Origin: Acidobacteriota bacterium
Lineage (GTDB): Bacteria > Acidobacteriota > Terriglobia > Terriglobales > Acidobacteriaceae
Length of the DNA: 52,019 nucleotides
NCBI GenBank assembly: GCA_021790995.1
Contig: JAJYFA010000009.1
Location: forward strand, 1-52,019
Direction of reading: 5' to 3'
Position 1 is the stretch's first letter. Each line of letters starts with the position of its first letter. Below, in pieces: positions 1 through 50,768 of the stretch. A program made the translations under genes and the position numbers. The notes beneath the pieces were generated by a model that ran no database searches, had not been told where the DNA came from, and worked only from the letters and a program-made list of their open reading frames with translations.

Positions 1-3000
1 CCCAAGACATCGACGGGTGTGGGCATCATGGGCTACGGCAAGCTGGACGGCCGCGGCGGCGATCCGCTGATCAATGCAGTGGCGCCTTACCAGGGCTACA
101 GCTGGTGGGGCCTGTCAGCGGCTTATTCGAGCCCCAACAGCCAGGACAACCCGCGCTTTATCCAGATGGAAAGCGGCGCGAGCAACATCACGCTTTATAA
201 GATCGCCATCCGCAACTCGCCGCTGTTCCATGTTTCCACCACGGGCGCCGTATCGAACGTCACCATCTGGGATGTGAAGGTGGTTACGCCTACCAGTTCG
301 CGCAATACCGACGGCATTGATCCGGGCAACGTAACGAACTGGACCGTGACACGCTCGTGGGTCTCCGACGGCGACGACGACATCGCCGTGGGTGCTTCCG
401 GCTCGAATCCGGCCACCAACATCTCCATCACCAACAACCACTTCTTCGCAGGACACGGCGAGTCCATCGGCAGCATTACCGAAGCGGGCGTGAGTAACGT
501 GCTGTTTGATGGCAACATGTCGGCGGGCAACGGATTCGCCGGCGCCGGCAGCGCGGTGAGCGCGACGGGAACCTTTGCCGGAGGCGTTTCCGACAGCAAT
601 TCGACGGCCATCCGCATCAAGTCGGCAAACGACCGCGGCGGAATTGTCGCCAATATTCAGTACTCAAACTCCTGCTTCCTTGACCACAAGAGCGACGTGC
701 AGTTCACGCCGTTGTACAACACCAACAGCGGGACGCTGACGCCGAACTTCAATAACATCCTGATGCAGAACCTCGTCTTTTTGAACGGCGCTTCAAGCGC
801 GGGAGGTCTGCAATTCACCGGCGCCGTGAACGGGACTACCGTCAATCCGCTGATGGTGACGCTCGACAACGTGAGCTTCCCGAGCGCAGTGTCGAGTTCC
901 ACTTTCACGACCAGCGGCAGCGCGGGCACGGAGACCAATGCACATCTCACCTACGGGCCGGGACAGGTTTCCTCGAACTTCATATCGGCGTGGGCCACGT
1001 TTGCGGGTTCGAACGGCGACACCGCGACCAACAACATTACGGCGAGCAGCCTTGAGCCGCCGGCTTGCAACTTTACCTACATCGCTCCGGAACTGACCGG
1101 TCCCATGGGCTTGCCGCAGACCATTACGGAAGGCCAGAATGCGACCGCGGTCATGATTCTGACGCCTGCTGTGGGCGGAGCCGCATACCCCACAGGAACG
1201 GTGACGCTCACCGATGCGCTGACCGGAAGCACCTACCCGGCTACACTGCCCGGAAACACCGACACAATCTTCATCCCGTTGAGCGGGCTCACGGTGGGAA
1301 CGCACACCTTCACCGCGACCTATTCGGGCGACAGTAACTACGCGCCACCCAGCGGCGCAGCCTACTACACGTCCGCGGGACCGTACACGATCACGGTGAA
1401 TGCGGGCAGCCTGGGATCGAGTTCGACCACGATTTCACTTGGGTCTGCTTCGGGCGCATACGGCACAGCGGTCACGGCAAAGGCCACCGTTACCGGCACC
1501 AATCCCACCGGAACCGTGCAGTTTGTGGTGAGCGGGGGCGGACTTGCGGGCAGCTACACTTACGCTACCGTCGCGCTGACAGCGGCCAGCAGCAGCACTG
1601 CAACCGCTTCCACCAGTCTGAATCTGCCCATGAGCGCGACGGCTTACAGCGTGGTTGCGATCTATAGCGGTGATGGCGCCAACTCCGGCTCGACTTCGGT
1701 CGGATCGCCTCTGACGGTTGGCGCGGCGCTGAGCACAACGGCGCTTTCCGTCAATTCCACGACAGTGACTCTCGGCACTCCGGCGCTTGTCACTGTCACG
1801 GTCAGCTCGGCCGGCGGAGTTCCGCTGGGAACGGTTTCGCTCAGTTACACCACTGCCGCGAGCAGCACGCCGGTTCCGCTTGGATCGGTGGCGCTGATCA
1901 ACGGCTCGGCGTCTTTCTCTGCCGAGCTTCCCGCAGGCAGCGACTCTCTGACTGCTTCCTATGCGGGCTCAGGCAGTTTTGCCGCCTCGAGTTCCGCGCC
2001 GATGACGGTTACCGTCAACGGCTTCACCCCGGCCGCGCTGCCAGTCCGCCCCATGGCGCTCGCCAACACCATGACGACGCTCGTAGGCGGCGCCAGCTCC
2101 AACTGCGCCGGGACGGCGGATGCCTACGGTGATGGCTGCCTGGGAACCGCCATCGCGCTGTCGCCGGGTGACGATCTGCGAGGCATCGCAGCCGACCCGT
2201 TCGGTAATGTCTACTTCACCGACAGCAAGGCCAAGCTGATCCGGCGCGTTGCGCCGAATGGAATGGTCGCCAACTTTGCCGGCCGCGTTGCGGGCTCAGC
2301 CTGCATTGCTCCTGCCTCGACCTCAGCCAACGGGGCCGGTTGCACGCCCACGCTCGTCAGCCTGAACGAGGCGCGCGGCGTTTCCTCGGATGCGGCAGGG
2401 AACATCTTCATCGCTGGCTACAACGACAACAAAGTGTATGAGGTGCGCGCGGCCGACGGGCTGATGTACACCGTCGCCGGCACAGGCACGGGAACTTCAA
2501 CCGGCGACGGAGGACTGGCGGCTTCGGCCACGGTGGCTTCGCCGCGCAGCGCATGGGCCGACTCGCTGGGCAACATTTATATTGCCGATACCGGAGGCAA
2601 CCGCATCCGGGTGGTCGACAGCTCCGGCTACATCCATGCCTTCGCCGGCAACGGAACCGCGGGATCCACGGGCGATGGAGGGCCTGCCCTTGCGGCCGAG
2701 ATCAACAATCCGCAGGGCGTGATGGTCGACAACAACCTCAACGTCTATATCGCCGACAATGCAACCGTCCGCGTGGTGTGTGTCACCTGCGGTACCAGTT
2801 CGCCGCTCGACAATCTCCTCGGCAAGCTGGGTATCGCCTCGCCGGTCAACGGTGATATCTACACCATCGCTGGCGGAGGCGTCACGACGGCAGCCAAAGC
2901 TTTGCAGCCCGTGTCGCCGACCAGTGTCACCATGCAGCCGCAGAAGCTTGGTATTGACCGGAACGGAAACATCTATATCTCCGACGGCTACGGAGCGATC

Positions 3001-5310
3001 TGGTTCCTGGATGCACAGTCGGGTTCCATCCGCGCGCTTGCAGCCAGCGCCACCACGGTCTGCACAGGTTCGACCGACTCTGTCGGCGACGGCTGTCCAG
3101 CGACGCAGGCAAGCTTCGGCGATGCAGGCAACGGCATTGGCGTGGCGGTGGATCCGCTCGGAAACGTCTATATCGGTGACACACTCAACCTGCGTATCCG
3201 CGAGGCCGCAACCAATCTGGCCTCTGCCGGCGGCGCGACTGGAAGCAAGACAACCGAGCCGGTCGAGCTGCATTTCATCCCTGGCGACAACCTGGCCACA
3301 ACAAACGGCCTGGTTTCCTCCTCGGGCGAGTGGTCGCTGTCGACACCCTCCTGCACCACCAATGCCGACGCAACTGCCGACTGTATGTTCACGTCGAGTT
3401 TCACGCCAGCAGTTCCCGGCGCGCGTTCGACGCCGATCACCGTGACAAGCTCCAAGGGCAATATCGCGAATCTTGCGCTCACGGGCATGGGCCTGGGCGC
3501 TGGAGCCACGGTCGATCCGGCGAGCCAAATCAGCTTCGGCGCCGGCCTTGCGGTTGCGGGCCTCGCCACGGATGATGCCGGAAACATCTACGTCTCCGAT
3601 TCCAACAGCAAGCAGCTCTTCCGCTTTAACCCGAAGTCGGCCTCGCAGGGATCGAGCGCCACCGGAACCGCGCTGGCCACGCTCGGTGCGCCGGGAGCGA
3701 TTGCACTGGATGCGCGCGGCTACGTGTATGTCGCCGACACCGCGGCTGGAACCATCACCCGAATCTCGCCCACGGGAAGCGCCGTTGCGCTGCCTTATAC
3801 CTTCACCAAACCGGCAGGTCTCGCCGTGGATAGCGTGAACAATCTCTACGTGTCGGACTCCGCCGCCAAGGCTGTTTATCTCATCAATCCAGCGGCCGGC
3901 GCAAAGACAACCCTCGCGCTGGGAACTCTGGTTGCGCCTTCCGGTCTGGCCGTCGATCCCAATGGCAACCTGCTGGTTGCCGATCCGGGCGCGCCGGCAA
4001 TCTACCGCTTTAACCTGCTCACCGGCGCCAGGAGCACGGTGAAAACATCGGCGACGGCTCCGTCTCAGATCGTCACCGATGCTGCCGGAAACCTGCTGAT
4101 CGCCGACGCGGCGGCAATCCTCGCCGTACCGGCCAGCAGCAACAGCAACGCATTTACGGTGGCCGGCATTGCGCCTGCCGCGCTGGCGATCGACGCGGCC
4201 GGCAATCTCTACACCGGTTCCTCGGGTGGTGTGCTCAAGCTCGCGCGTACGCTGGGCGCGGTGCAATTCGCGGCCGCCGGCGCCTCGCAAAATGTCTATC
4301 TGCTTGCATCCGGCAACCAGACTTACACCGCGACGGCCTGGACCCAGACCGACACAACGGACTATGGCCTGGCTCCCACTGCTTCGACGGATTGCTCCCT
4401 GAGTTCGACCGGGGCCGGCACTCTGGCCGTCGGCGGACTTTGCGCGCTCACAGCCACTTACCCGACCGCAACCACCGCCGCAACCACCGACGCGGTCACG
4501 TTCAACGGCAATCTCACCAATGCCGCGTTGTCCACGCCGTCCTCAGTGCAGTTGACGCTTACCGGGCAGCCGGCGATTCCTCCACCTGCCCCCGGAGCGC
4601 CGGCGATTTCCGCTATCTCTCCGGGGTTTGTTTCGGCCGGAACTGCGGCCTTTACGCTGACCGTTAATGGTTCTGGTTTTGTCTCCAATTCCACGATCAA
4701 TTGGGGTTCCACCGCGCTCGCCACGACTTTCGTCAGCAGCACGGAACTGACGGCGCAGGTTCCTTCGTCCGCCGTTTCGACCTCAGGCATTTACACCATC
4801 GCAGTGCAAACACCGGCGCCAGGCGGAGGCACATCGAACGCCATGCAATTCGAGGTGGATTCGCCGGGAAGCGGCGGCGGACCAGTGTTCACCACTCTCA
4901 CGGCTACGGTGACTCCGGGCTCAACGGTCACCTATGCTCTCACCTTGCCTTCTGGCGCCACGAATGTCAGCGTACAGTGCTTGAATCTTCCTGCCGGCGC
5001 GGCGTGCAGCTATTCGAGCACCAGCAGCATGTTGACAATTTCAACCACGTCGTCGACGCCGTCCGGTACTTACCAGATCACCGTCGTCATTACGGAGACG
5101 CTGCCGGGCAGCGCCACCGCGCTGATCTTCCTTCCGTTCCTGCTGCTGCCGCTGGCAGCCTTCAGGACCAGATGGGCCAAACAACGCGTGTGGCTGACGA
5201 TCGTTCTGACGATCGCAGTCGCTGCGGGCGCCACCATGATGGGCTGCGGAGGAAGCTCGCAGACTCACACCGTCACCCGATCCGCTACGGTCACCCTGGT
5301 CGTCAAGTAG
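1..5310 (+). CDS. Giant secreted beta-helix / Ig-like / NHL-repeat protein, 5' end outside window
   Basis: The frame is open to the left edge, so the first GTG/ATG (19/28) is probably not the real start and the signal peptide is missing. Residues 1-350 (numbered from 19) resemble the right-handed beta-helix of GH28/pectin-lyase-like proteins (GYGKLDGRGGDPL near the start, SDGDDDIAVG near 120). Three Ig-like domains follow (about 360-670, each ending in a TYSGD or similar strand). A first NHL propeller with GNVYFTD/GNIYIADT repeats spans about 690-1080, and a second about 1175-1410. An IPT/TIG domain lies near 1525-1610. The C-terminus has a hydrophobic helix (about 1695-1705) and a second one ending in MMGCGG. 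The protein is probably exported and surface-associated. The helix resembles polysaccharide-active folds, but I could not verify catalytic residues. Similar mosaic proteins are common in Acidobacteriota. Confidence 0.85.
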   Translation, partial: PKTSTGVGIMGYGKLDGRGGDPLINAVAPYQGYSWWGLSAAYSSPNSQDNPRFIQMESGASNITLYKIAIRNSPLFHVSTTGAVSNVTIWDVKVVTPTSSRNTDGIDPGNVTNWTVTRSWVSDGDDDIAVGASGSNPATNISITNNHFFAGHGESIGSITEAGVSNVLFDGNMSAGNGFAGAGSAVSATGTFAGGVSDSNSTAIRIKSANDRGGIVANIQYSNSCFLDHKSDVQFTPLYNTNSGTLTPNFNNILMQNLVFLNGASSAGGLQFTGAVNGTTVNPLMVTLDNVSFPSAVSSSTFTTSGSAGTETNAHLTYGPGQVSSNFISAWATFAGSNGDTATNNITASSLEPPACNFTYIAPELTGPMGLPQTITEGQNATAVMILTPAVGGAAYPTGTVTLTDALTGSTYPATLPGNTDTIFIPLSGLTVGTHTFTATYSGDSNYAPPSGAAYYTSAGPYTITVNAGSLGSSSTTISLGSASGAYGTAVTAKATVTGTNPTGTVQFVVSGGGLAGSYTYATVALTAASSSTATASTSLNLPMSATAYSVVAIYSGDGANSGSTSVGSPLTVGAALSTTALSVNSTTVTLGTPALVTVTVSSAGGVPLGTVSLSYTTAASSTPVPLGSVALINGSASFSAELPAGSDSLTASYAGSGSFAASSSAPMTVTVNGFTPAALPVRPMALANTMTTLVGGASSNCAGTADAYGDGCLGTAIALSPGDDLRGIAADPFGNVYFTDSKAKLIRRVAPNGMVANFAGRVAGSACIAPASTSANGAGCTPTLVSLNEARGVSSDAAGNIFIAGYNDNKVYEVRAADGLMYTVAGTGTGTSTGDGGLAASATVASPRSAWADSLGNIYIADTGGNRIRVVDSSGYIHAFAGNGTAGSTGDGGPALAAEINNPQGVMVDNNLNVYIADNATVRVVCVTCGTSSPLDNLLGKLGIASPVNGDIYTIAGGGVTTAAKALQPVSPTSVTMQPQKLGIDRNGNIYISDGYGAIWFLDAQSGSIRALAASATTVCTGSTDSVGDGCPATQASFGDAGNGIGVAVDPLGNVYIGDTLNLRIREAATNLASAGGATGSKTTEPVELHFIPGDNLATTNGLVSSSGEWSLSTPSCTTNADATADCMFTSSFTPAVPGARSTPITVTSSKGNIANLALTGMGLGAGATVDPASQISFGAGLAVAGLATDDAGNIYVSDSNSKQLFRFNPKSASQGSSATGTALATLGAPGAIALDARGYVYVADTAAGTITRISPTGSAVALPYTFTKPAGLAVDSVNNLYVSDSAAKAVYLINPAAGAKTTLALGTLVAPSGLAVDPNGNLLVADPGAPAIYRFNLLTGARSTVKTSATAPSQIVTDAAGNLLIADAAAILAVPASSNSNAFTVAGIAPAALAIDAAGNLYTGSSGGVLKLARTLGAVQFAAAGASQNVYLLASGNQTYTATAWTQTDTTDYGLAPTASTDCSLSSTGAGTLAVGGLCALTATYPTATTAATTDAVTFNGNLTNAALSTPSSVQLTLTGQPAIPPPAPGAPAISAISPGFVSAGTAAFTLTVNGSGFVSNSTINWGSTALATTFVSSTELTAQVPSSAVSTSGIYTIAVQTPAPGGGTSNAMQFEVDSPGSGGGPVFTTLTATVTPGSTVTYALTLPSGATNVSVQCLNLPAGAACSYSSTSSMLTISTTSSTPSGTYQITVVITETLPGSATALIFLPFLLLPLAAFRTRWAKQRVWLTIVLTIAVAAGATMMGCGGSSQTHTVTRSATVTLVVK

Positions 5311-7356: not shown

Positions 7357-8727
7357 TCAGAAAATAAACCGCATCAACAGATAGGCGGTATTGTTGTCGC
7401 TGGCGTTGCGGCCGCTGCCGTCATAGTTGATGTTACCGCCATTGAAGCGCGTGTAGCCTGTGTACTGGAAGGCCAGGTCGAGGTTTTGCAGCGGCCAGTA
7501 GGAGAAGTTGGCTGAATAGCCTTCGCTTCTCGGACTGCCGTTCGCGCTGCCGGAGATCGCCGCGGGGGCATACAGCGTGGTATCGGCAGTGCCCGAAGTG
7601 AGGAACCAGCCGAAGGCGCCGGAGAGCCGGTTGCCGTAGTGATATTCGACGTTGGCATTGCCGGTGTTGAGGTGATGATTGCCCGGCGACGCCGTCCCGG
7701 CAGCGGAACTCGCGTTGTAGATTTCGTTCTCGCGCAGGTAGGTGCCGCGGACGGAGAGCACATCGCGGCCGATGGTACGGTCGTACTCGAAGTCCGGGCC
7801 AAAGTCTGTGTAGTTATCCGTGGGGCCGGTAAAACTCGTGCTGGTCGCGCCTCCTGGAAATGACGCTACGTGCATCCCATAGAATCCGGCTTCGATGACG
7901 TTGGTTCTTCCGGTTTCCTGGTACGCAACTCGCCAGTACGGGGCCAGGCCGCTGATGTTATAGGAAGCGCCCACGCCGGTATTGGGCTGTGGCGATCCCA
8001 TATGGTCCGAGCGGTAGAAGGTTGCAGCTCCGTACAGGTGGTTGTTCCACATGGTATAGCCGCCGAAGCCTGCCACATCCTGCGCAAGCGCGCCCTGAAT
8101 AATGGCCGAGGCCGCCGGCGTGGGAGCCGAGTCTGACGCGATGAAAGGATAGCCCCAGTTCGGCAGGGTCATATAGACATCTTCAACGGTCGGATTGTTG
8201 TTGAACATCAGGCCCCAGATCAGATCCTTGCCGTTCACTTTGGCCTTTTTGGCGTACCGGATATCCGTGTTATCCATGCTGAAATGGTCGTCCTGCGCGT
8301 TGTAGGTGACCTGGAGAAAGCTTCCCAGGTGATCGGCCCATGCGCCAGCGAGGAACAGGGAGATGTCCTGCGGAAATTCAAAGTTGCCGTTCTGCGTGCC
8401 GGGCTGAGCCTTCTTTGTGCTGGTCGAAGAGGCCTCGAACCATGCGCCCAGAGGCAGCGTCTGGAGCATTTTGAGAGCGGGACGCCGACTGTCGGATGGA
8501 GCCGCAGGCACCGTGCTGTTAGCTGTCCTGTCCGTGAAGGCAAGAAGCTTGAACAGGCGTCCGGCGGGATTCAACTCCGGCGGAGTATAGTGGCAGCCGC
8601 TGCACGGCAGCCCTGTTTGGCGCGCGTAGCTCGGCAGAGCTTTCGCATTGGGAGTGGATGTACAGATCAGGAACGAAAACGCCACAACCGATAGCGCGGC
8701 GCTGGTCCCCAAAGGCAAGAATTTCAT
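7357..8727 (-). CDS. Outer-membrane beta-barrel protein with an N-terminal c-type heme motif
   Basis: 456 residues. A signal peptide (about 1-30) is followed at once by a CxxCH motif (Cys42, Cys45, His46) and then a long Gly/Asn/Tyr-rich region with alternating hydrophobic strands ending in LLMRFIF. A terminal aromatic residue is typical of beta-barrel proteins inserted by BamA. The start follows AAGGAGG five bases upstream. It is the last gene of the cytochrome operon, separated from the preceding cytochrome by 176 bp that include a hairpin at 8874-8892. I infer a barrel with one periplasm-facing heme, possibly passing electrons to or across the outer membrane. A simple porin is the alternative; the MtrB family is not recognisable. 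Confidence 0.75.
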   Translation of the reverse strand: MKFLPLGTSAALSVVAFSFLICTSTPNAKALPSYARQTGLPCSGCHYTPPELNPAGRLFKLLAFTDRTANSTVPAAPSDSRRPALKMLQTLPLGAWFEASSTSTKKAQPGTQNGNFEFPQDISLFLAGAWADHLGSFLQVTYNAQDDHFSMDNTDIRYAKKAKVNGKDLIWGLMFNNNPTVEDVYMTLPNWGYPFIASDSAPTPAASAIIQGALAQDVAGFGGYTMWNNHLYGAATFYRSDHMGSPQPNTGVGASYNISGLAPYWRVAYQETGRTNVIEAGFYGMHVASFPGGATSTSFTGPTDNYTDFGPDFEYDRTIGRDVLSVRGTYLRENEIYNASSAAGTASPGNHHLNTGNANVEYHYGNRLSGAFGWFLTSGTADTTLYAPAAISGSANGSPRSEGYSANFSYWPLQNLDLAFQYTGYTRFNGGNINYDGSGRNASDNNTAYLLMRFIF

Positions 8728-8873
8728 AAGTCCTCCTTAAATTTGAATGAATGAATGAAACCCAAATTCTGAAATTCCCCTGCGTCGTTGCGCGGCATGA
8801 TCGAAACCGGCCGGAGACAGCGGCGCAGATGGAGCTTGTGAACCGGGAGCGCGGAAAATGCACCCCCCACCCA

Positions 8874-8892
8874 GCGCTCCCCTAAGGAGCGC
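8874..8892 (-). other. GC-rich hairpin between two cytochrome operon genes
   Basis: GCGCTCC (8874-8880) and GGAGCGC (8886-8892) form a perfect 7-bp stem with a 5-nt loop, just after the cytochrome stop at 8904 on the minus strand. What follows on that strand is G-rich rather than a T-run, so partial attenuation or mRNA processing is likelier than full termination. Confidence 0.45.
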
Positions 8893-8903
8893 CGGTCCCG
8901 AGT

Positions 8904-9635
8904 TCAATGTTTTCCATACACAACCCCAGGCACCACATAGGGAGGATCGGAGACCAGCCGAATGTAAGCAATCACGGCCTGCATTTCGGCTTTGTCGAGC
9001 GTCCAGCCATAAGGCGGCATCAGGGAAGAGCGGTTCATGGCCGGGCCGCCGTGCGAGATGACGGTCGCCAGATCGGCATCGGAAAACTTGTTATAGACCT
9101 CGCCGCTGGAAAACGAGTGAGGCTTCACGGCGAGATTGTCGTAGTTGGAAACCTGCTCGGTTGTCGAGTCGGGATTGTGGCAGCGAGAGCAGTATTTTTG
9201 ATTCACCTCGTAACCAACTTCCTGCTGGTAGCCGGCGGCAAATTCAGCAACCGTGAGGGTGAAAGTCTTTCCGTGAGCATCCTGCGATGATGCCGTCAAT
9301 TCGTATCGGCCCGAGATTCCGCCGAGGGTTACCTTGAACGTAGCTTGCCCATTGTCGTCGGTGAGAACCTGCGCCGGGTCGAAGACGACGCCCCGCGGGC
9401 CGGAAATCTGCACCTTGGCCCCGGTCACGGTGTTGCCCTGGTCGTCATTTACCTGGAGCACCAGCGGTTGCGGAAGCTGAGAGCCGGGAGATCCCAATTG
9501 CTTGTCGCCGCTGGCCACGACGATGGCCGTGCCGGCCGCCTTTGCCTGCAGTGCAGGAGCAGACGCTTTCCGATGCCCACATCCGGCGCACGCTGCGGCA
9601 ACGAGCATTGCGGAGATCCATAGATTCGCTTTCAT
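8904..9635 (-). CDS. Ig-like domain / monoheme cytochrome c lipoprotein
   Basis: 243 residues counted from the ATG at 9635, which shares its A with the stop of the upstream octaheme cytochrome (TGATG), implying translational coupling. A hydrophobic leader ends in CAGC, a plausible though atypical lipobox, predicting a lipid-anchored periplasmic protein. A Big_1-like Ig domain follows at about 55-130 (DDQGNTVTGAKV, TDDNGQATFKVTL). A cytochrome c domain follows with CSRCH and a C-terminal helix ending in AYIRLVSDPP; a Met in SSLMPPYGW is a likely sixth ligand. Much of the longer open frame upstream of 9635 is out-of-frame overlap with the octaheme gene. The Ig module may position the heme domain near its partner; that role is inferred. 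Confidence 0.85.
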   Translation of the reverse strand: MKANLWISAMLVAAACAGCGHRKASAPALQAKAAGTAIVVASGDKQLGSPGSQLPQPLVLQVNDDQGNTVTGAKVQISGPRGVVFDPAQVLTDDNGQATFKVTLGGISGRYELTASSQDAHGKTFTLTVAEFAAGYQQEVGYEVNQKYCSRCHNPDSTTEQVSNYDNLAVKPHSFSSGEVYNKFSDADLATVISHGGPAMNRSSLMPPYGWTLDKAEMQAVIAYIRLVSDPPYVVPGVVYGKH

Positions 9636-11692
9636 CACTTTGCCCCCTGCCCGGCGCCGGTCTTCTGCGCCATGAGGAATGCCGTCAGCGCGCGAGCGTC
9701 GTCGTCGCTCATGTGCTGGTTGGGCTCGATGGTTCCGGGACGCAGCGCCTGAGGATCTTTCAGATAGTGGAAGATCCACGCAGCGTTCAGGCGCGCGCCG
9801 ACCTTCGTCAATGTAGGCCCGATGTATCCCTTGTCCTGGTTGGGATTCACCATGTGGCAAGACTGGCAGTCGTACTTGGAATAAAAGAGCTGGCGCCCCT
9901 TTTCGACGAGATCGGGCGAGTAGCCGCTGAGCGGCATCTCGTCGCGTACGAACGCGGGTGTCTGGTAGACGGTCATGATGTAGTTGGTCAGCACAGTGCG
10001 CTCGGCATCCGTAAGGTTGAACTTCGGCATGCGCCGAATCAGGGCCGGACGCAACGTGTTGGGATCCTTCAGGAAGCCATCGAGCCACTGGCTCTGGACC
10101 GAGGATCCTTCCCAGCTCAGGTCGGGAGCCATGGTGCCTCCGTGGCCGTTGATGCGGTGGCAACTCAGGCAGTTGAGGTTCGCCATCAGTTGACCTGCCT
10201 GGCCCGCAGGCTGGTAGTTCGTCTCGCGCGCCGCGGGAACCTGCAGGCTGGAGGGCAGGGCGAAACTGCGATCGGTAAGTGAAAGCAGCGCGGTGGTAAC
10301 GTCCGCCACCTGGCTGGAGGTGAAGTTGTAGCGAGGCATGTGGAGCGAGGGTCCAAAGGACCGCGGCTGCCGGATCTTCTCCGAGAGGTAAGCAGGCAGG
10401 CTGTGCTCCATGCCCGGCAGGAAGACAAGCTGAACCAGCGGCTTGCTGCCGATGCGGCTCAGGTCCGGTCCGAAGTTGTCCGGCTTGGGAACGCCTGTGA
10501 TGGCATGGCAGGAGGCGCAGCCATACTCGATGACCAGCTTCTTGCCGTGCTCAATCTGCGCCTTTGTCGCCGGCTGCAGATGGACGTTGGCGAGAAGGTC
10601 GGAATCGGTTTTGCTGGCGACGTAGGCAGTGATCGTCTTGAGCTGCTGATCGGTCCAGCGGTATTGCGGCATCAGCGTGCTCGGATCGTACTTTTGCGGA
10701 TCGCGCATCCAGGCCATGAGCCAGTCGGGCTTGACCTTGGTGCCTACGTTGGTCAGCTCCGGTCCCAGGTCTCCGCCGACCAGATTGCCGGCTTCATTCT
10801 GGGTTGCGTGGCAGGAGGCGCAGAAGGACTCGCCATAGAGGCTGGCTCCGGCCGTAGGATCGGGCGCCGGCCCATGCGATGCGGCCGAAGACGCCATCGT
10901 GTCGCCGGGCTGAGGTGTGCTGTTGGCGATGAGGAACGCCGAGATGTCGCTGGCGTCCGCGTCGCTCAACTGGAAGTTTGGCATTGTGGCCGAGGCTGAA
11001 TAGCTCGTTGGATCCTTGAGCCATGCATAGATCCACTCGCGGCTGGTTTTGTCGGCGATGTGGGTCAACGGCGGCGGATTGTCGGTGGCCTGCATCGTGC
11101 TGCCATCGGGAAGTGTGACGGTATGGCAGTTCACGCAGCCGTAGCGGGCAAGCATCACGCGGCCATTGTTCAGCTTGGGCGTGCCTTCGAGCGGCTCGTG
11201 GTGGCACTGCCCGCAGGAAGATTCGACATAGCGCGCGGGCAGGATTGGCTCTTCGCCTGCCATCTTGCTATGGTGTGCCTCTTCGACGGTGGTCGCCGCG
11301 CCCTGGCCGCGATGGCACATCACGCAGCCGAACTGGGTAAGCTTGTGCGGAATCGGCGGATGGGCGCGAAACGGCTGCTCCTTGATATTGGAAAGGCTGG
11401 CCTCGGTCAGGCCGACATGGCAGGTCTGGCAGCGATCGACAACGCCCAGTTCGGGAATCCAGATTTGCTGGATCCCACCCTGAAAGTGGCGGCGCAGCGT
11501 GACCGCATCGCCACGATTGCGGATGAGGTTCAGATACTGCTTCTGGTAGCCGTGCCACTGGCTGAAGTAATCCTTCGCCGGCGCCACAGTCAGCAGAAGA
11601 AGCAGAACCACGCTGACAATTCCAAACATGCGGAACGGATCGCGGATGAAAGCCTTGATTGAGGAGATAAAGCCAGTATTATGCGTTTGCAT
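9635..11692 (-). CDS. Membrane-anchored octaheme cytochrome c of the Rieske/cytochrome b complex
   Basis: 685 residues with one N-terminal membrane helix (about 22-36) and eight CxxCH motifs in order: CQTCH, CVMCH, CGQCH, CVNCH, CASCH, CASCH, CLSCH, CQSCH. The first three are packed in the N-terminal part. The last five each sit in a roughly 100-residue monoheme domain with a later Met that may be an axial ligand (ATMPNF, TLMPQY, LHMPRY, RRMPKF, QHMSDD). It is encoded immediately after the cytochrome b subunits, so it likely takes the place of cytochrome c1 or f and carries electrons from the Rieske centre to soluble or outer-membrane acceptors. Location should be periplasmic and membrane-tethered. 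Confidence 0.92.
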   Translation of the reverse strand: MQTHNTGFISSIKAFIRDPFRMFGIVSVVLLLLLTVAPAKDYFSQWHGYQKQYLNLIRNRGDAVTLRRHFQGGIQQIWIPELGVVDRCQTCHVGLTEASLSNIKEQPFRAHPPIPHKLTQFGCVMCHRGQGAATTVEEAHHSKMAGEEPILPARYVESSCGQCHHEPLEGTPKLNNGRVMLARYGCVNCHTVTLPDGSTMQATDNPPPLTHIADKTSREWIYAWLKDPTSYSASATMPNFQLSDADASDISAFLIANSTPQPGDTMASSAASHGPAPDPTAGASLYGESFCASCHATQNEAGNLVGGDLGPELTNVGTKVKPDWLMAWMRDPQKYDPSTLMPQYRWTDQQLKTITAYVASKTDSDLLANVHLQPATKAQIEHGKKLVIEYGCASCHAITGVPKPDNFGPDLSRIGSKPLVQLVFLPGMEHSLPAYLSEKIRQPRSFGPSLHMPRYNFTSSQVADVTTALLSLTDRSFALPSSLQVPAARETNYQPAGQAGQLMANLNCLSCHRINGHGGTMAPDLSWEGSSVQSQWLDGFLKDPNTLRPALIRRMPKFNLTDAERTVLTNYIMTVYQTPAFVRDEMPLSGYSPDLVEKGRQLFYSKYDCQSCHMVNPNQDKGYIGPTLTKVGARLNAAWIFHYLKDPQALRPGTIEPNQHMSDDDARALTAFLMAQKTGAGQGAK

Positions 11693-12397
11693 TTAGCTCC
11701 TCCATGGCCATACCCACGACCAGCCGGGGCCGCGGAAGAACGTGCCCACCGCCGTGAGGACAATAAGTTCGAAAAGAAACCACGTCATGATCCACCAGAA
11801 AATGGGTCTTAATGCTAGATATCGCCGCAAACGGCCCGGCGATTGCGGAGAACTGAAGGCGGCCAGCAGCATGAGCGCGGCAATGATCACCGTCGGCGCC
11901 AGCGCCACATATACATCGAAGAACCAGAGGAAAATGCTCAGCGATCCCGCCACGATCATCGACAGCATCAGGCGTTGCTGGCGATTCTTGAGAAAGAAGC
12001 CCTCGGCCTCAATGTTGATGTCGAAATAAGGAATAACGATAAGTGCAATGATCAGCAAGCCAGGGATCAAGACCCCGGCGACGACCGGCGGGAAATAATG
12101 CAGCATCTCCTGCAGGCCGAGGAAGTACCAAGGCGCCTTGGCCGGATTGGGCGTGTTGGTAGGGTTGGCAATGCCCTCAAGCGGAGCATTGAAAAAGAGC
12201 GACATGAGCACCAGGCCGATGAGCAGGCACTCGACCGCCAGCAGAGCCCTGATCAAAACCTCGGAAAAGGTCTGCACTCTCTCCTCGTCGTAGACCTTTA
12301 CCTGCGGAGAGGTGCGCCGTGTCACGAAAAGCACACGCCTTTGCGAAGCGCGCATGTCCGATCCGACTGCAGCCGTGAAGTCTTTGGGAGGTGTCAT
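11693..12397 (-). CDS. Cytochrome b C-terminal (subunit IV-like) subunit
   Basis: 234 residues with four hydrophobic segments (about 48-68, 105-125, 142-165 and 200-222), matching the C-terminal half of cytochrome b, or subunit IV of b6f. The quinol-site PEWY motif appears as APWY in [16 protein letters not shown] (about 80-95), so the usual Glu is absent. The ATG at 12397 overlaps the stop of the cytochrome b6-like gene by four bases (ATGA), so the two halves are translationally coupled. With its partner it should form the quinol-oxidising core in the inner membrane. Confidence 0.92.
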
Positions 12398-13185
12398 CGT
12401 GTTTTTTGCTCCTCGTTGGATGACTGCTGCTCATGGCTTGCCGCGCCGGGTTCACTTTCCCGCACGTACAGGCCGCCGTCCTTGCGAATCCGCCAGAAAT
12501 GCACGGCCAGAAACACAACCGCGGTGAGGGGCAGAATCACGCAGTGCAGCACGTAGAAGCGAAGCAGCGCATTGGCGTTCACCAGATGGCCGCCCAGCAG
12601 AAGAAAGCGGATCTTGTCGCCGATGAGCGGCACAGCGGAGGAGATGTTCGTTCCGACCGTGATCGCCCAGTAGGCGAGCTGATCCCAGGGCAACAGGTAG
12701 CCCGTGTAGCTGAGCAGAAGCGTCACCAGCAGCAGGAAGACGCCGACCACCCAGTTGAACTCCCGCGGGGCGCGGTACGCGCCACGATAGAAGACGCGAA
12801 ACATGTGCGCAAAGGCGAGAAAGACCATCGCGTGCGCCGACCAGCGATGAAGATTGCGCAGAAAAAGACCCGATGAAACGGCAAACTGAAGATCCTTGAC
12901 ATCGGAATAGGCGCGCGGCACGGAAGGATGGTAGTAAAGCATCAGCAGAATGCCGGTGACGACCAGAACAATGAATGTACCGAGCGTGAGCGTTCCCAGA
13001 TACCAGGTAGCGCCCAGGCCAAGCATTCGCTTGCGAACTTTGGTGGGGAACAGGTGCAGGAACACGTTCTGCTGAATCGCCAGCGCGTTGTGAAGCGTGC
13101 TCGTGCCCTTCCCGCTGCGGAAGATCGATCGCCAGACCCGCGTGCGCTCGAGCTTGTCGAAGTAGGTTTCGATGGTACCCGGCAT
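12394..13185 (-). CDS. Cytochrome b6-like subunit, diheme b
   Basis: 263 residues with four transmembrane helices. Two His pairs 14 residues apart match the ligands for hemes bL and b[20 protein letters not shown] in helix B and [19 protein letters not shown] in helix D. The split b6 plus subunit IV form places the complex in the b6f/menaquinol-type group rather than with mitochondrial bc1. The C-terminal tail is polar and Glu/Gln rich. It is preceded by the Rieske gene with only 3 nt between them and overlaps the downstream subunit by 4 nt. Confidence 0.94.
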
Positions 13186-13188
13186 CTC

Positions 13189-13689
13189 TTATACCCTCAG
13201 AAACTGGAACTGTGGAATGGTTACGGAGCGATCGACCATGAGTTCTCCATCGTCGCTCATCCAGGTTTTCAGCCAGGGAAGCGGCCTGGGCGCCGGACCG
13301 GCCAGCTTTTGCCCCTCTTCGCTGAAGCGGCTGCCGTGACATGGACATGCGATCATGTTCAATTCGGGCTTCCAGGCCGTCATGCATCCCAGGTGGGTGC
13401 AAATCGCACTCAGCGAGAAGTAGCCCTCGGCAAGGTGCACCAGATAGATCGCGGAGTTTACATCGAGCGTGACGGATCCGAGCGGATAGCGATCCAGCGC
13501 GCCCGCATTCACAATGGGGGAGGGCTCGAACAGAACATTGGGAGAAAGATACTGGTAGTAAAAAGCCAGGGTTCCCGCTGTCGCCACCCCCAGCGAGCCG
13601 AGGCCGAGTTTGGTGAAGAACTCCCTGCGATCCAGCTCGGAGCCTTCGCGAACAAGATGGGTTTCCGTTGTCGTGGTCATTGTCGGCAT
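13189..13689 (-). CDS. Rieske [2Fe-2S] protein
   Basis: 166 residues from the ATG at 13689, which overlaps the upstream stop as TGATG. The GTG at 13692 is an alternative, and the ATG at 13680 has better spacing from AGGAAG. A Tat-like signal, RREFFTKLG, precedes a hydrophobic anchor. The Rieske motifs are CTHLGC (about 97-102) and CPCHGS (about 115-120), which supply two Cys and two His for the cluster plus the disulfide pair. The protein should sit in the periplasm, anchored by its uncleaved N-terminus, and shuttle electrons from quinol to the octaheme cytochrome. Confidence 0.94.
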   Translation of the reverse strand: MPTMTTTTETHLVREGSELDRREFFTKLGLGSLGVATAGTLAFYYQYLSPNVLFEPSPIVNAGALDRYPLGSVTLDVNSAIYLVHLAEGYFSLSAICTHLGCMTAWKPELNMIACPCHGSRFSEEGQKLAGPAPRPLPWLKTWMSDDGELMVDRSVTIPQFQFLRV

Positions 13690-15662
13690 CACTTCCTGTC
13701 TGCCACCGGCACGCGCAAAGGCGCTTCGATGGATTCAATGGAGATGAGCCCGGTCGGTTCGGCCGGGATCAGGTTGTAGGCTTCCATGGTGATCGTGCCC
13801 GCCGGGCATCGCGCTGCGCAAAGACCGCAGCGAATGCATCGCGTTTCGTCCTTCAGCATCACCGAACCGGCAATCGTACCCAGTTCTTCTGCCCGCACAT
13901 CGTCCAGTTCCACGTTGAGGAGTTGCTCGTTCTCGACAAGCTGCTCTACAACTCCCGGATCGAAATCGAAACGATCGAGACTTACCAGCTCAAGGCAGTT
14001 CTCCGGGCAGACATCGACGCAGCCGCCGCAGAGGATACATTGGCTGCCGTCCTGCGCGTTGCCCTCGAAGATGGTGTTGACCCAGCAGTGCAGGCATCGC
14101 TGCGCCTCTGCCCGGGCTGTCTCCTCGTCGTAAACTACCTCGACTTCGGTGACTCCCGTACGGCGGTCGAGCGGCAGTACCTGTGGATCCTTGCGGACAA
14201 GGTCAAGCAGATTGAGCGGCATGGTGTGGCGATTCAGAATCTCCACCTCAATCGTTGCCTCGGGATGGCTGGTGCCGCGCAAATACTCGTCAATCCCCAT
14301 CGCCGCGCGTTTGCCGTCGGCAACACTGTCGATAATCAACCGCGGTCCAAATGCGCAGTCTCCGCCGGCGAAAATACCGGGGGCCGAGGTCATCAGAGTG
14401 CGCGGCTCGACCGCGATCAGTCCCCGGCGCGAGATCTCCACGCCGTCTTCCGGCTTCAGGAAGTCCAGCCTGGGGGCCTGACCGATGGCCATGATGATCG
14501 TGTCGCATTCGAGCTGGAATTCGCTGCCCTCGTAAAACGAGGGATTGAACCGGCCGTTGGCGTCGAATACCTGCTTGGTCTTGAGCACTTCGAGCGCGGT
14601 GACGCCATCGGGACCGCCTATGATGCATTTTGGTCCGAGACCGGGATGCAGGATGACGCCTTCCTCCTCGGCCTCGACGATCTCTTCCTGCGCCGCCGGC
14701 ATCTGTGCCCGGGGTTCGAGGCAGACCAGGTGGACCTCCTGGGCGCCGAGGCGCAGCGCGGACAGCGAGATGTCCATCATCTCCTTGCCGGCGACTGCGT
14801 CCACGTTCTCCTGAAGCGGCTCCTGCTCCTGAACCCCCGAGACATGCTGGCGCACCACCTCGCGCGCCGCCGAGCGGGCCACATCCATGGCCACGTTGCC
14901 GCCGCCGATGACAATGACCTTTTTGCCGATCGTGAATTGGTAGCCCAGGTTGACGTTGAGAAGAAAATCAATTCCCTTGTAAACCCCATCCAGATCCACG
15001 CCGGGAATAGAGAGATCGCGGCTGCGATGCGCCCCGACCGCAATCAGGACCGCGTCGAAACCCTGGCTGCGCAATTCGGAGACTTCGAAGTCGCGCCCCG
15101 CCGCATAGTTCAGCTTCAGGGTAATGTCTCCAGTCGCAAGAATCTCCCGCACCTGCGCCTGAATGACGCTGCGCGGCAGCCGGTACTCCGGCACGCCAAG
15201 ATGGAGCATTCCGCCTGCAACCGGGGCGGCCTCGAAGATCGTGACCGAATAGCCCATCAGAGCCAGGTCGTGAGCCGCCGAGAGTCCAACCGGCCCGGCG
15301 CCCACAATGGCAATCTTGAAAGGCAGCTTCTTCTGGCTGCATCCCGCATTCACATCAACAGGCCGTCTCGACTCGGGCCCGTGGCGCTCGGTCAAAAACC
15401 GTTTGAGCGCCCGAATCGAGATAGGACGGTCAATTGCGCCGCGGCGGCAAGCCGTCTCGCAAGGATGCGCGCAAACCCGGCCGCAGATGCTGGCCAGCGG
15501 GTTCGGACCGCGCGCATAGCGGTAGGCCTCTTCGTACTCTCCTTCCGCGATGAGCGCAACATATCTGCCCGCATTGGTATGCGCGGGACAAGCCATCATG
15601 CATGGGAAGTTGCTGTTCAACCACCCTGCGTCGACCGCTTTGTTCTCAAATCGCTTCAACAT
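13689..15662 (-). CDS. GltD-like NAD(P)/FAD oxidoreductase with C-terminal ferredoxin domains
   Basis: Taken from the ATG at 15662, this gives 657 residues beginning MLKRFENKAV. A TTG at 15740, directly after the upstream stop, would add 26 residues but would place a strong hairpin (15703-15726) inside the coding sequence, so I prefer the ATG. The N-terminus has the GltD Fe-S signature (CMMACPAHTNAGRY; CGRVCAHPCETACRR), then FAD binding GAGPVGLSAA, NAD(P) binding GGGNVAMDVARSA and the late FAD motif GIFAGGDCAFGP. The C-terminus has two ferredoxin-like clusters (CILCGGCVDVCPENC; CIRCGLCAARCPAGT). The protein is cytoplasmic or membrane-peripheral. Being encoded first before Rieske and cytochrome b suggests it links NAD(P)H or ferredoxin to that complex. 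Confidence 0.9.
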   Translation of the reverse strand: MLKRFENKAVDAGWLNSNFPCMMACPAHTNAGRYVALIAEGEYEEAYRYARGPNPLASICGRVCAHPCETACRRGAIDRPISIRALKRFLTERHGPESRRPVDVNAGCSQKKLPFKIAIVGAGPVGLSAAHDLALMGYSVTIFEAAPVAGGMLHLGVPEYRLPRSVIQAQVREILATGDITLKLNYAAGRDFEVSELRSQGFDAVLIAVGAHRSRDLSIPGVDLDGVYKGIDFLLNVNLGYQFTIGKKVIVIGGGNVAMDVARSAAREVVRQHVSGVQEQEPLQENVDAVAGKEMMDISLSALRLGAQEVHLVCLEPRAQMPAAQEEIVEAEEEGVILHPGLGPKCIIGGPDGVTALEVLKTKQVFDANGRFNPSFYEGSEFQLECDTIIMAIGQAPRLDFLKPEDGVEISRRGLIAVEPRTLMTSAPGIFAGGDCAFGPRLIIDSVADGKRAAMGIDEYLRGTSHPEATIEVEILNRHTMPLNLLDLVRKDPQVLPLDRRTGVTEVEVVYDEETARAEAQRCLHCWVNTIFEGNAQDGSQCILCGGCVDVCPENCLELVSLDRFDFDPGVVEQLVENEQLLNVELDDVRAEELGTIAGSVMLKDETRCIRCGLCAARCPAGTITMEAYNLIPAEPTGLISIESIEAPLRVPVADRK

Positions 15663-15702
15663 GCCGCCCGCTTCCCTGCCCAGACGCTTTACTCTCGGCT
15701 GT

Positions 15703-15726
15703 GCCGTGGGCGCACGCGCCCACGGC
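15703..15726 (-). other. Perfect 10-bp hairpin between cupredoxin and oxidoreductase genes
   Basis: GCCGTGGGCG (15703-15712) pairs perfectly with CGCCCACGGC (15717-15726) across a 4-nt loop. It begins 15 nt after the cupredoxin stop and ends 41 nt before the ATG at 15662. No T-run follows on the minus strand, so it may set relative mRNA levels by processing or stabilise the upstream mRNA rather than terminate. Confidence 0.6.
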
Positions 15727-15740
15727 TGGTTGCTCGCCAA

Positions 15741-16322
15741 TTACTTCATCGGGATATTCGCGGTGGCGTCGCCCGAAACCGTAATCTGCACGGTGTGGGT
15801 GCGCATCTTGTCCCGCTCGTTCCAGGCCGTCAGCTTATACGTCCCGTTGGGAACATTCGCGATCGTGAAAGCACCCGTCTTGTCGGTCGTTGCGAAATAG
15901 GGCGTCGGTGAAACTACAATGTAGCCCGCCATATCCGGATGCACGTTGCACAAAAGCGGCACAATTCCGGTGGCGTCGAACTTGAAGCTGCGTTGCTGTC
16001 CGCGCGGCCAGGTGCCCATGTTGTGGCCAAGGCTCTTGTTGCCGCTGATCGAGGGCCAGAACACGTTGTGCTCCACGCTGTCCTCGTTCTTGAAGTCCAC
16101 CGTGGTTCCCTTCTGGACCACCAGAAGGTGCGGCATGAACATCAAGCCCTTCTGATTCACCTCCGCATGTTGTGCAGGCGCGGGGAAAGTTTTGCCGGCA
16201 ATTGCGTCGACGTAAACAACGGACTGCCCCTTGGCGCCCGTAACTTTGCCATGGATGGTTCCTGCCTGTGCAGCAACCGCCGCTATCAGCAATACGAAAA
16301 CTGCTGGAACAATGTGCTTCAT
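15741..16322 (-). CDS. Periplasmic cupredoxin (plastocyanin-like) with C-terminal beta-sandwich
   Basis: 193 residues from the ATG at 16322, which has a near-ideal AGGAGG six bases upstream; the longer frame starting at 16382 adds an unlikely N-terminus. A signal peptide covers residues 1-20. The probable type 1 copper ligands are His85 (EHNVFW), Cys125, His128 and Met131 (CNVHPDM). A carboxypeptidase-regulatory-like strand set follows (GAFTIANVPNGTYKLTAWNE). It is the first gene of the respiratory operon, which suggests a soluble electron carrier accepting from the cytochrome chain. Structural, non-redox relatives exist, but all four ligand positions are present here. Confidence 0.88.
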   Translation of the reverse strand: MKHIVPAVFVLLIAAVAAQAGTIHGKVTGAKGQSVVYVDAIAGKTFPAPAQHAEVNQKGLMFMPHLLVVQKGTTVDFKNEDSVEHNVFWPSISGNKSLGHNMGTWPRGQQRSFKFDATGIVPLLCNVHPDMAGYIVVSPTPYFATTDKTGAFTIANVPNGTYKLTAWNERDKMRTHTVQITVSGDATANIPMK

Positions 16323-16505: not shown

Positions 16506-16521
16506 TGTGATTGCGGTCACA
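16506..16521. promoter_or_regulatory. CRP-type operator 1, perfect TGTGA-N6-TCACA
   Basis: TGTGATTGCGGTCACA matches the CRP half-sites exactly. Its centre is about 40-50 bp upstream of the start inferred from the candidate promoter, near the position used by class II activators. The regulator itself is not encoded in the window. Confidence 0.65.
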
Positions 16522-16546: not shown

Positions 16547-16562
16547 TGTGATCTATCTCACA
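16547..16562. promoter_or_regulatory. CRP-type operator 2, perfect TGTGA-N6-TCACA
   Basis: TGTGATCTATCTCACA is a second exact match, centred 41 bp (about four helical turns) from operator 1, so proteins bound at both sites would lie on the same face of the DNA. Confidence 0.65.
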
Positions 16563-40579: not shown

Positions 40580-40746
40580 GGATGCGGCGCCAGACGATAA
40601 ACTTCATACAGAGATTCCGGAAATGAGCCGTTACCCATTTTGGGACGGACGGCTCGAAAACGATCCGCTTTCTCCTTTAAGCTTTTTCTCACACGTTCGA
40701 CTTATGGGTACACTCACATTGAGCCGAACAGGGATGGACAGCATCG

Positions 40747-47067: not shown

Positions 47068-47176
47068 TCTCTTCTCCTTCAGAACAATCGAAAGAAGACA
47101 CACCCGCAGTTGAACGCAGGGGCTGTCTCTCTGTCTCCAGCGCCTTCAGCGCCAACCCCGAATCCCCGAGGTCACG

Positions 47177-48148
47177 ATGCCTGTTGTCGAAAGCGCAATC
47201 TCCAATGTCCACCGGGCCGCCAGCGCCATAGCGCCGCCACGCCCAAACCACCTGCGCCTGCTCGAAGCCGAGAGCATTCACATTCTGCGCGAGGTCGCCT
47301 CGGAGTTCGAGCGGCCAGTGATGCTCTACTCGATCGGCAAAGATTCTTCGGTAATGCTGCGACTGGCCGAGAAGGCATTCTATCCGGCGCCGATTCCTTT
47401 TCCATTGCTGCACATTGACACCGGCTTCAAATTTCGCGAGATGATTGCCTTCCGCGACGCGATGGCGCGGCAGGTGGGGGCAGAGTTACTGGTGTGGCGC
47501 AACGAGCCTGCGATCGCAGCAGGAACCAATCCCATTGCGCTCGACACCAGGCGCTGCTGCGGGTTGCTGAAGACACAGGCGCTGCTCGACGGCCTGCGCC
47601 ACTACAACTTCGACGCGGCCTTCGGCGGCGCGCGCCGCGACGAGGAGAAATCGCGCGCCAAGGAGCGCATCTACTCCTTTCGTGACGCTGCCGGGCAGTG
47701 GGATCCGAAGAACCAGCGGCCAGAACTCTGGAACCTCTACAATGCGCGTGTTCATCCCGGCGAGAGCATTCGCGTCTTTCCGCTCTCGAACTGGACGGAG
47801 ATGGACGTCTGGCAGTACATCCACGAAGAGAAAATTCCCGTGGTCGACCTCTACTTCGCAAAGGAGCGGCCAATGTACGTGCGCCGCACGCCCTCGGGCG
47901 AAGACGCGCTGCTGCCGATCGAGCAGGATTTTGTCGCGCGAACGGCCGAGAAGCCGCAAATGGTCAAGTGCCGGCTGCGCTCGCTCGGCTGCAGCCCGTG
48001 CACGGGCGCGATTCGCTCCGATGCCGACACGATTCCGGCCATCATTGCCGAGCTGATTTCCTTCCGTTCCTCCGAGCGCGCCAATCGCGCCATCGACCAC
48101 GACCAGGAAGGCTCGATGGAGATCAAGAAGCGGGAAGGATACTTCTGA
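47177..48148 (+). CDS. cysD: Sulfate adenylyltransferase subunit 2
   Basis: 323 residues from the ATG at 47177 (GAGG six bases upstream). CysD signatures are [20 protein letters not shown], the PP-motif [43 protein letters not shown] and [12 protein letters not shown]. With CysN it makes adenosine 5'-phosphosulfate (APS) from ATP and sulfate. First structural gene of the cys operon. Confidence 0.97.
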
Positions 48149-48209
48149 AAAGCAGGGAATAGGGAATAGAAAACAGGAACTGAACGGATAAGAAGAATCG
48201 GAGGCCACA

Positions 48210-50647: not shown

Positions 50648-50768
50648 GGACCGCAAGGGATGAAAGATCTCAACTGTTCGAGTCTCGTTTCTGCATCGAC
50701 GTAAAGGGCGCAGAGTGCTGCCTTCCGTCGGCGACCATTGATCGAACGGAAGGACCGGGAGCGAACAA

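Follow-up and report, generated by a model that had tools for sequence, protein, structure and literature searches.

In this study we describe an operon of eight minus-strand genes (16322 down to 7357) in a 52,019-nucleotide stretch of DNA from an Acidobacteriota bacterium (contig JAJYFA010000009.1; the window, hereafter), and we propose that it encodes a menaquinol-bifurcating, NAD+-reducing complex whose high-potential branch would lead through an octaheme cytochrome, a cupredoxin and a monoheme lipoprotein to oxidases or to a Cyc2-like porin. We give this reading a probability of about one half. From 5' to 3' the genes encode a cupredoxin, a FAD/NAD(P) oxidoreductase, a Rieske protein, a b6-like cytochrome b, a subunit-IV-like protein, an octaheme cytochrome c, a lipoprotein with an Ig-like domain and a monoheme cytochrome c, and a barrel protein. 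Matches in Pfam were Copper-bind for the first, Pyr_redox_2, Fer4_20 and Fer4 for the second, then Rieske, Cytochrome_B and Cytochrom_B_C, and cytochrome c domains. The genes overlap by 1-4 bases or sit a few bases apart, with the exception of a 176-base gap before the barrel gene, so that the original prediction of eight mostly overlapping or adjacent genes in one direction is borne out; its count of ten CxxCH sites was correct as well (8 + 1 + 1; the six-frame total for the window is 13), while its word 'fused' does not apply to what are eight separate genes. As the block is kept together in many related bacteria, it is probably one working unit, and we infer a single electron-transfer system, its physical association and its electron direction.

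Conserved operons strongly suggest that the inner-membrane core works together with the cytoplasmic oxidoreductase. In a sample of 149 Acidobacteriota genomes, oxidoreductase homologues (E <= 3e-126) were found at 36 places in 33 genomes; 35 of these share a contig with a cytochrome b homologue, 27 within 1.1 kb and eight at 4.8 to 6.0 kb, and at the 36th (G009:C17) a Rieske gene adjoins the oxidoreductase. A second sample of 150 genomes from the window's own family contained a close cytochrome b (E <= 1e-85) in 42, and in all 30 loci read (12 were left unread) the oxidoreductase lies beside it. Both counts contradict the finding that had been named beforehand as fatal to the idea, namely that homologous operons never keep the oxidoreductase with the cytochrome b genes. 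Outside the phylum, Rieske and cytochrome b genes share the oxidoreductase contig in seven of eight places read in Planctomycetota (11 of 149 genomes matched) and in four of eight in Nitrospirota (19 of 148 genomes matched), the misses being mostly short contigs. Two Nitrospirota loci (L212, L216) have an arrangement of their own: oxidoreductase, 5-heme protein, Rieske, short divergent b6 and subunit IV, and 5- and 11-heme proteins. Besides the window, 14 loci (L044-L057) carry the whole gene set, and they come from the window's own family and seven more acidobacterial families; no separate subunit-IV gene was recognised in L057, and the contig of L046 ends within the cupredoxin gene. To judge from these genomes, the association of oxidoreductase and cytochrome b is real, it is old or repeatedly made, and it is detachable.

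The plan of the predicted complex is that of the complexes of anammox bacteria, and an NAD-type nucleotide site, a missing heme cN, the cupredoxin and a Cyc2-like porin make it a new variant. An anammox likeness had already been suggested, and it holds: the two best PDB matches of the Rieske protein are those of Kuenenia, 9rk4 (Kuste4569) and 9rk3 (Kustd1480), and the oxidoreductase, cytochrome b and subunit IV all have homologues encoded in anammox operons. The Cyc2-like barrel, the NAD-type site and the absent heme-cN cysteine go beyond that first reading. With Kuste4569-4574 and Kustd1480-1485 of Kuenenia stuttgartiensis, as described in excerpts of PMC12954380, the window shares Rieske, b6-like cytochrome b, subunit IV and a homologous FAD/Fe-S oxidoreductase in one operon, a multiheme cytochrome in place of cytochrome f, a histidine at the equivalent position (His43 in Kuenenia, His44 here) and a hydroxyl-bearing serine beside the Rieske cluster. 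The oxidoreductase gene comes first in the window, ahead of the Rieske gene, whereas in Kuenenia it follows Rieske or cytochrome b: one anammox order is Rieske, oxidoreductase, b6, IV, hexaheme and HAO-like protein (e.g. L084), the other Rieske, b6, oxidoreductase, IV and an octaheme of ~950 aa (L184, L186, L187). The window's octaheme, with 685 aa and four Cytochrom_C stretches, thus stands where Kuenenia has either a hexaheme plus HAO-like pair or the ~950-aa octaheme. The cupredoxin, monoheme lipoprotein and Cyc2-like porin are additions of the window, and hosts of the operon encode terminal oxidases (families found in 23 of 23 genomes checked). Since anammox cytochromes b have the heme-cN cysteine and the window has Tyr62 instead, we file the window as a variant of the anammox-type complex, not as that complex itself.

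Other known systems are less similar. Rieske-b6-IV-octaheme operons of Nitrospirota, Thermodesulfobacteriota, Myxococcota and others share the gene order, and their octahemes are 28-33% identical to that of the window, but in the loci read they contain no oxidoreductase homologue over 200 bits, they keep the heme-cN cysteine, and in several of them 9- to 11-heme cytochromes come next. The Geobacter extHIJKLMNOPQS cluster (ExtP cytochrome b, ExtO Rieske, ExtI porin-like) likewise joins a bc-type core to c-type cytochromes and an outer-membrane porin; its description, in the excerpts of PMC5877670, lists no oxidoreductase or cupredoxin, its multihemes differ, and we regard it as a loose parallel. 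ExtP and ExtQ are the best NCBIfam matches of the window's b6 and IV, both below the cut-offs (266.4 of 290 and 49.9 of 150). From cytochrome b6f the window departs in having an octaheme cytochrome c for cytochrome f and in lacking the heme-cN cysteine.

The oxidoreductase (13689..15740, minus strand) is predicted from Pfam and PDB matches to be a cytoplasmic FAD/NAD(H) enzyme of the GltD/Nfn type with four Fe-S cysteine groups; its stop lies at 13689, and its start may be TTG 15740 or ATG 15662. No membrane helix was found in it. The 16 Fe-S cysteine positions are conserved in 90 to 98 of 98 homologues. In the PDB it most resembles Nfn-type bifurcating enzymes and GltD. With GltD, NfnB and Dpd-type oxidoreductases it shares an N-terminal Fe-S domain, a GR-type FAD/NAD(P) fold and two further Fe-S motif groups, whereas its genetic tie to a Rieske/b complex, an insertion in the NAD domain and an NAD-type Leu-Glu set it apart. 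The insertion (residues ~278-326) repeats D-[VI]-[AS]-x-SA-x-R; it is absent in Kuenenia and common among acidobacterial homologues. NADPH-binding relatives have Arg-Arg where the second strand of the NAD(P) domain ends; the window has Leu341-Glu342 there. By the Rossmann rule a Leu-Glu type at this site means NAD(H), and we therefore predict that the enzyme uses NAD(H), not NADP(H). The residue is Glu in 59 of the 98 homologues and Arg in 35, the latter group including the Kuenenia and Brocadia types; Scalindua and some deep Planctomycetota resemble the window in being NAD-type, in contrast to the NADP-type site of Kuenenia. Of the NAD(P)-linked role proposed earlier, the part that keeps the oxidoreductase with the complex is supported, and the cofactor is predicted to be NAD.

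The membrane part consists of the Rieske [2Fe-2S] protein (13189..13692, minus strand; CTHLGC...CPCHGS; Pfam Rieske 34.3 bits), the b6-like cytochrome b (12394..13185, minus strand) and the subunit-IV-like protein (11693..12397, minus strand; Pfam Cytochrom_B_C, four strong hydrophobic segments), in which KAPWYF takes the PEWY position, as it does in 27 of 27 aligned rows. The Rieske motif CPCHGSRF contains the serine and no tyrosine; Kustd1480 has the same combination, with a potential of +335 mV (PMC12954380, in part). The four heme-b histidines of cytochrome b (113, 127, 214 and 229) are present in 105 of 105 sequences. The heme-cN cysteine was found in none of 38 acidobacterial oxidoreductase-linked cytochromes b, in all 34 readable anammox sequences and in 27 of 32 sequences with no detected oxidoreductase. 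His44 aligns with Kuenenia His43, and the latter, from both monomers, has been proposed to hold an extra heme b that bridges to the oxidoreductase (Hauser et al. 2025, PMC12954380, in part). Among 15 window-type loci of the family to which the genome G155 belongs, 14 have both oxidoreductase and His44; G155, in whose genome no oxidoreductase match was found at E <= 1e-30, has Glu44. Its locus (L190, G155:C83:34000-53000) is a natural oxidoreductase deletion, with genes for a Cyc2-motif barrel, cupredoxin, Rieske, b6, IV, octaheme and monoheme c. The octaheme cytochrome c (9635..11692, minus strand) has eight CxxCH and an N-terminal membrane anchor, and all eight motifs are conserved in a 14-sequence alignment that includes octaheme proteins of other phyla. 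A structural model built from 14 sequences (pLDDT 66.3, pTM 0.51) gave nothing beyond a row of cytochrome c domains, and Foldseek with this model returned as best matches a Kuenenia diheme cytochrome (TM 0.12 by query length) and single cytochrome c domains. A different acidobacterial Rieske/b6/IV type (L083, L145, L146, L242-L256) has Gly at the heme-cN position and an octaheme of ~1080-1190 codons; where the loci were long enough (L083, L145, L146) a cupredoxin-like gene lies downstream, and no oxidoreductase was seen.

As we picture it, a dimeric b6f-like assembly of Rieske, cytochrome b and subunit IV would sit in the inner membrane, with the octaheme replacing cytochrome f, and the FAD/NAD(H) oxidoreductase would dock on the cytoplasmic face, as proposed for Kuste4569-4574 and Kustd1480-1485. 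Menaquinol would be oxidised at the outer quinone site. One electron would go uphill over hemes bP and bN, then probably across an additional heme b whose ligands are the His44 residues of the two monomers, and via the four Fe-S clusters to FAD and then NAD+. The other would take the downhill branch, from the Rieske cluster through the octaheme to the periplasmic cupredoxin and the monoheme lipoprotein, and might end at a terminal oxidase or cross the outer membrane through the Cyc2-like cytochrome-porin. The potentials are near -70 mV for menaquinone, near -320 mV for NAD and near +200 mV for c hemes; the reaction would therefore be near balance and could be reversed. For Kuenenia, whose two Rieske potentials were measured as +303 and +335 mV, the authors support NAD(P)+ reduction by quinol bifurcation, their main difficulty being heme cN, which is ~250 mV too high and quinone-accessible (PMC12954380, in part). 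Because the acidobacterial complexes keep the histidine and do without heme cN, the proposed route would here be free of that leak to quinone.

Several points weigh against this reading. Bifurcation is deduced here from sequence, and even without heme cN an inner quinone site of bc1 type could still support a conventional Q cycle. At eight of the 36 places the oxidoreductase lies 4.8-6.0 kb from cytochrome b, and it is detachable: the octaheme complex occurs without it in many phyla and in G155. Placed on the cytochrome b tree, presence and absence of the oxidoreductase call for no fewer than seven changes, one of them resting on L082 with its cut contig; the tree, made by a quick method from 91 rows with 32 near-duplicate or cut loci left out, did not recover the bc1 outgroup and serves only for this count, not to tell gain from loss. 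His44 is retained in all 32 cytochromes b lacking a detected nearby oxidoreductase and likewise in all 15 loci of a different acidobacterial type with none seen within ~1.5 kb, and the joint loss of His44 and oxidoreductase in G155 is a single event. The contact that Kuenenia Arg511 makes beside the extra heme is not conserved either, as the window has Gly there (CILCGGC as opposed to CVLCGRC). We had considered His44 as a general marker of oxidoreductase binding and rejected it on the 32 of 32 sequences with no detected oxidoreductase.

The last gene of the operon (7357..8727, minus strand) encodes a Cyc2-like monoheme cytochrome-porin candidate. Cyc2 is defined by AXPXFAR[Q/K][T/Y] before a single CXXCH that is followed four residues later by PXL (Keffer et al. 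2021, PMC8406198, in part). The window protein carries ALPSYARQTGLPCSGCHYTPPEL (ALPSYARQT-GLP-CSGCH-YTP-PEL), which is the published motif with one conservative change, F to Y; it has 456 aa, the size criterion for Cyc2 being over 365 aa, with one CxxCH behind a signal peptide and a C-terminal Phe. With Cyc2 of Acidithiobacillus and Mariprofundus (PMC8406198, in part) it shares AXPX[F/Y]ARQT-x3-CXXCH-x3-PXL, the single heme and the C-terminal aromatic residue, whereas the gene partners there are cyc1, cox and rus and here the Rieske/b complex and the oxidoreductase. The Cyc2 class has a C-terminal porin of 16 strands, OprO/OprP-like, for which the window protein is a candidate by its motif; it has no Pfam or NCBIfam match, and one of nine members of the barrel family gave a sub-threshold Porin_O_P match (19.6 of 20.9 bits). 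A single-sequence AlphaFold model (pLDDT 27.6) contained no barrel and was discarded. A Cyc2-motif protein stands at one end of all 15 window-type operons (the window and L044-L057), and also in L058, which has no recognised cupredoxin gene, and in L190; none was found in 23 other acidobacterial oxidoreductase loci (L059-L081) or in 74 anammox and other loci (L084-L157), some of them short. The strict motif is present in 11 of 18 flagged proteins of other loci, the remaining seven deviating slightly. There are two barrel sequence types, even inside one family, and the best coverage of the second by the first in whole-length searches was 31%, so that common descent rests on the N-terminal motif. 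One type has been swapped for the other at the same operon, which argues that selection favours a Cyc2-like function beside the cupredoxin and the complex. Cyc2-motif barrel genes also occur outside the operon, in L219 (G313:C87), followed by Rieske-like and b-type/heme open reading frames (ORFs), and in L220 (G155:C55), between two cupredoxin-like ORFs.

The porin is best accommodated by our main rival, a possible but less probable one, in which the operon is an inlet for iron oxidation. Extracellular Fe(II) would be oxidised by the Cyc2-like porin, and the cupredoxin, acting as rusticyanin does, would hand some of the electrons on to oxygen; the rest would be driven by proton-motive force backwards through octaheme and Rieske/b into the quinone pool, and the oxidoreductase would link quinol to NADH. 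The arrangement would resemble the rus plus petI systems of Acidithiobacillus, here in one operon. Besides motif and size of the porin, gene order is consistent with it. In 12 of the 15 operons the Cyc2-like gene stands next to the cupredoxin gene, at the 5' end; in the other three (the window, L044 and L046) it lies at the far 3' end. The oxidoreductase-free L190 still groups porin, cupredoxin and complex. Full-length barrel homologues (30-37% identity), annotated as 'cytochrome C' or hypothetical, are found on nine plasmid records including those of Caballeronia, Acidiphilium and Acidithiobacillus ferrooxidans. In all four of the contexts read, c-type cytochrome genes adjoin the barrel homologue (in one a HiPIP gene too), and two of these four homologues have the strict motif; the FDOR search of plasmids gave no match at E <= 1e-60. 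However, by our own reasoning bc geometry bars pushing Rieske-side electrons straight to NAD+, and plain reversal would consume NADH. We also saw no sign of Calvin-cycle autotrophy, the only RuBisCO-family gene in the window's genome looking RuBisCO-like; other CO2-fixation routes were not checked. As a mark of autotrophy RuBisCO was rejected: PF00016 matched in four of 23 genomes including the window's, and the two sequences read carry KPS, the true RuBisCO motif being KPK. The gene of the window's genome (G000:C262:940-1773, L221) has a 432-aa open frame and is probably RuBisCO-like. Moreover, Cyc2-like proteins are also known where iron oxidation is unproven, Burkholderia, Ralstonia and Xanthomonas being highly sampled genera (PMC8406198, in part). 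Quinone-based bifurcation and an iron inlet might be joined, and we tentatively suggest one chain of Cyc2-like iron cytochrome, cupredoxin and Rieske/b-octaheme-NAD oxidoreductase in which electrons given to or taken from extracellular iron, and those of menaquinol, would be balanced against NAD+ by bifurcation or its reverse.

An outward path, from NADH over b hemes and the quinone/octaheme chain to the porin and Fe(III) or another outside acceptor, seems unlikely to us. The encoded cofactors do form a continuous row from the NAD site to the outer membrane, and the Geobacter cluster with Rieske/b, multihemes and porin-like ExtI serves selenite and tellurite reduction (PMC5877670, in part). 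However, the energy of NADH would be wasted unless coupled, an objection also raised by the anammox authors (PMC12954380, in part), function-tested Cyc2 members oxidise Fe(II), and the barrel has a single heme. Of the path from NAD(P)H to the cell surface that the original prediction offered as a second reading, the row of cofactors is encoded as claimed, but it is not the likeliest reading. More improbable still is that the oxidoreductase is a co-regulated but separate soluble GltD/Nfn-like enzyme beside a conventional quinol-cytochrome c oxidoreductase that runs a Q cycle: it does lack a membrane helix, its relatives GltD and NfnB serve many partners and the complex occurs without it, but the genes are closely adjacent across several phyla, the anammox complexes have the same partner with the Kuste4569-4574 subunits reported to comigrate (PMC12954380, in part), and oxidoreductase and His44 were lost together in G155.

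NAD(P)+ reduction by quinol bifurcation in a Rieske/cytochrome b complex is at present an open proposal that rests on hard-to-grow anammox bacteria. The same architecture in at least eight sampled acidobacterial families, with terminal oxidases in all genomes checked and without heme cN, makes the idea testable outside anammox, and the oxidoreductase-free relative G155 offers a natural control. In this large soil phylum, the fixed partnership of the complex with a Cyc2-like porin and a cupredoxin is also a definite candidate for electron transfer linked to iron. If the chain joining surface iron to NADH were real, it would contain the first Rieske/cytochrome b complex known to be both linked to iron and NAD-reducing; as there would be no heme cN leaking electrons to quinone, it would also show in its cleanest form the mechanism put forward for anammox bacteria. 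A literature search, with subscription papers outside its scope, found no description of the operon in Acidobacteriota and none of an oxidoreductase-linked Rieske/b complex beyond anammox bacteria.

The two remaining genes of the operon encode periplasmic or lipid-anchored carriers by prediction. The cupredoxin (15741..16322, minus strand; Copper-bind 26.7 bits, cut-off 21.2) has a signal-peptide-like start and a type 1 copper site whose His, Cys, His and Met ligands are conserved in 16 of 16 aligned sequences; its preferred start is ATG 16322 after GGAGG. The lipoprotein-like monoheme cytochrome c (8904..9635, minus strand) has an AGC lipobox, a Pfam Cytochrome_CBB3 match and an Ig-like domain with Big_1 just below the cut-off. 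The lipobox-like Cys is present in aligned rows, but the Ig part is retained only in the window's family, so that the name Ig-cytochrome c lipoprotein is right for the window protein and does not describe a general feature.

Upstream of the operon we noted two exact TGTGA-N6-TCACA sites, CRP/FNR-family-like, at 16506-16521 and 16547-16562 (no strand assigned; 41 bases apart), compared with 0.03 expected; none of 100 shuffles contains two, although with one mismatch allowed two arise in 24 of 100. Of six further loci in the window's family, three (L044, L045, L047) have an exact site no more than ~100 bases ahead of their first operon ORF, and the eight loci from other families (L050-L057) have none there. 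Within the window's family, control by a regulator of the CRP/FNR family is therefore likely. Elsewhere in the window, positions 1-5310 encode a 1763-aa secreted-looking protein with Ig-like and beta-propeller-type repeats by eye and a Cys lipobox-like stretch at its end, 40723-42348 encodes sigma-54, and 47114-51677 holds a sulfate-assimilation set of PAPS reductase, an EF-Tu-like GTPase (CysN-like) and TauE.

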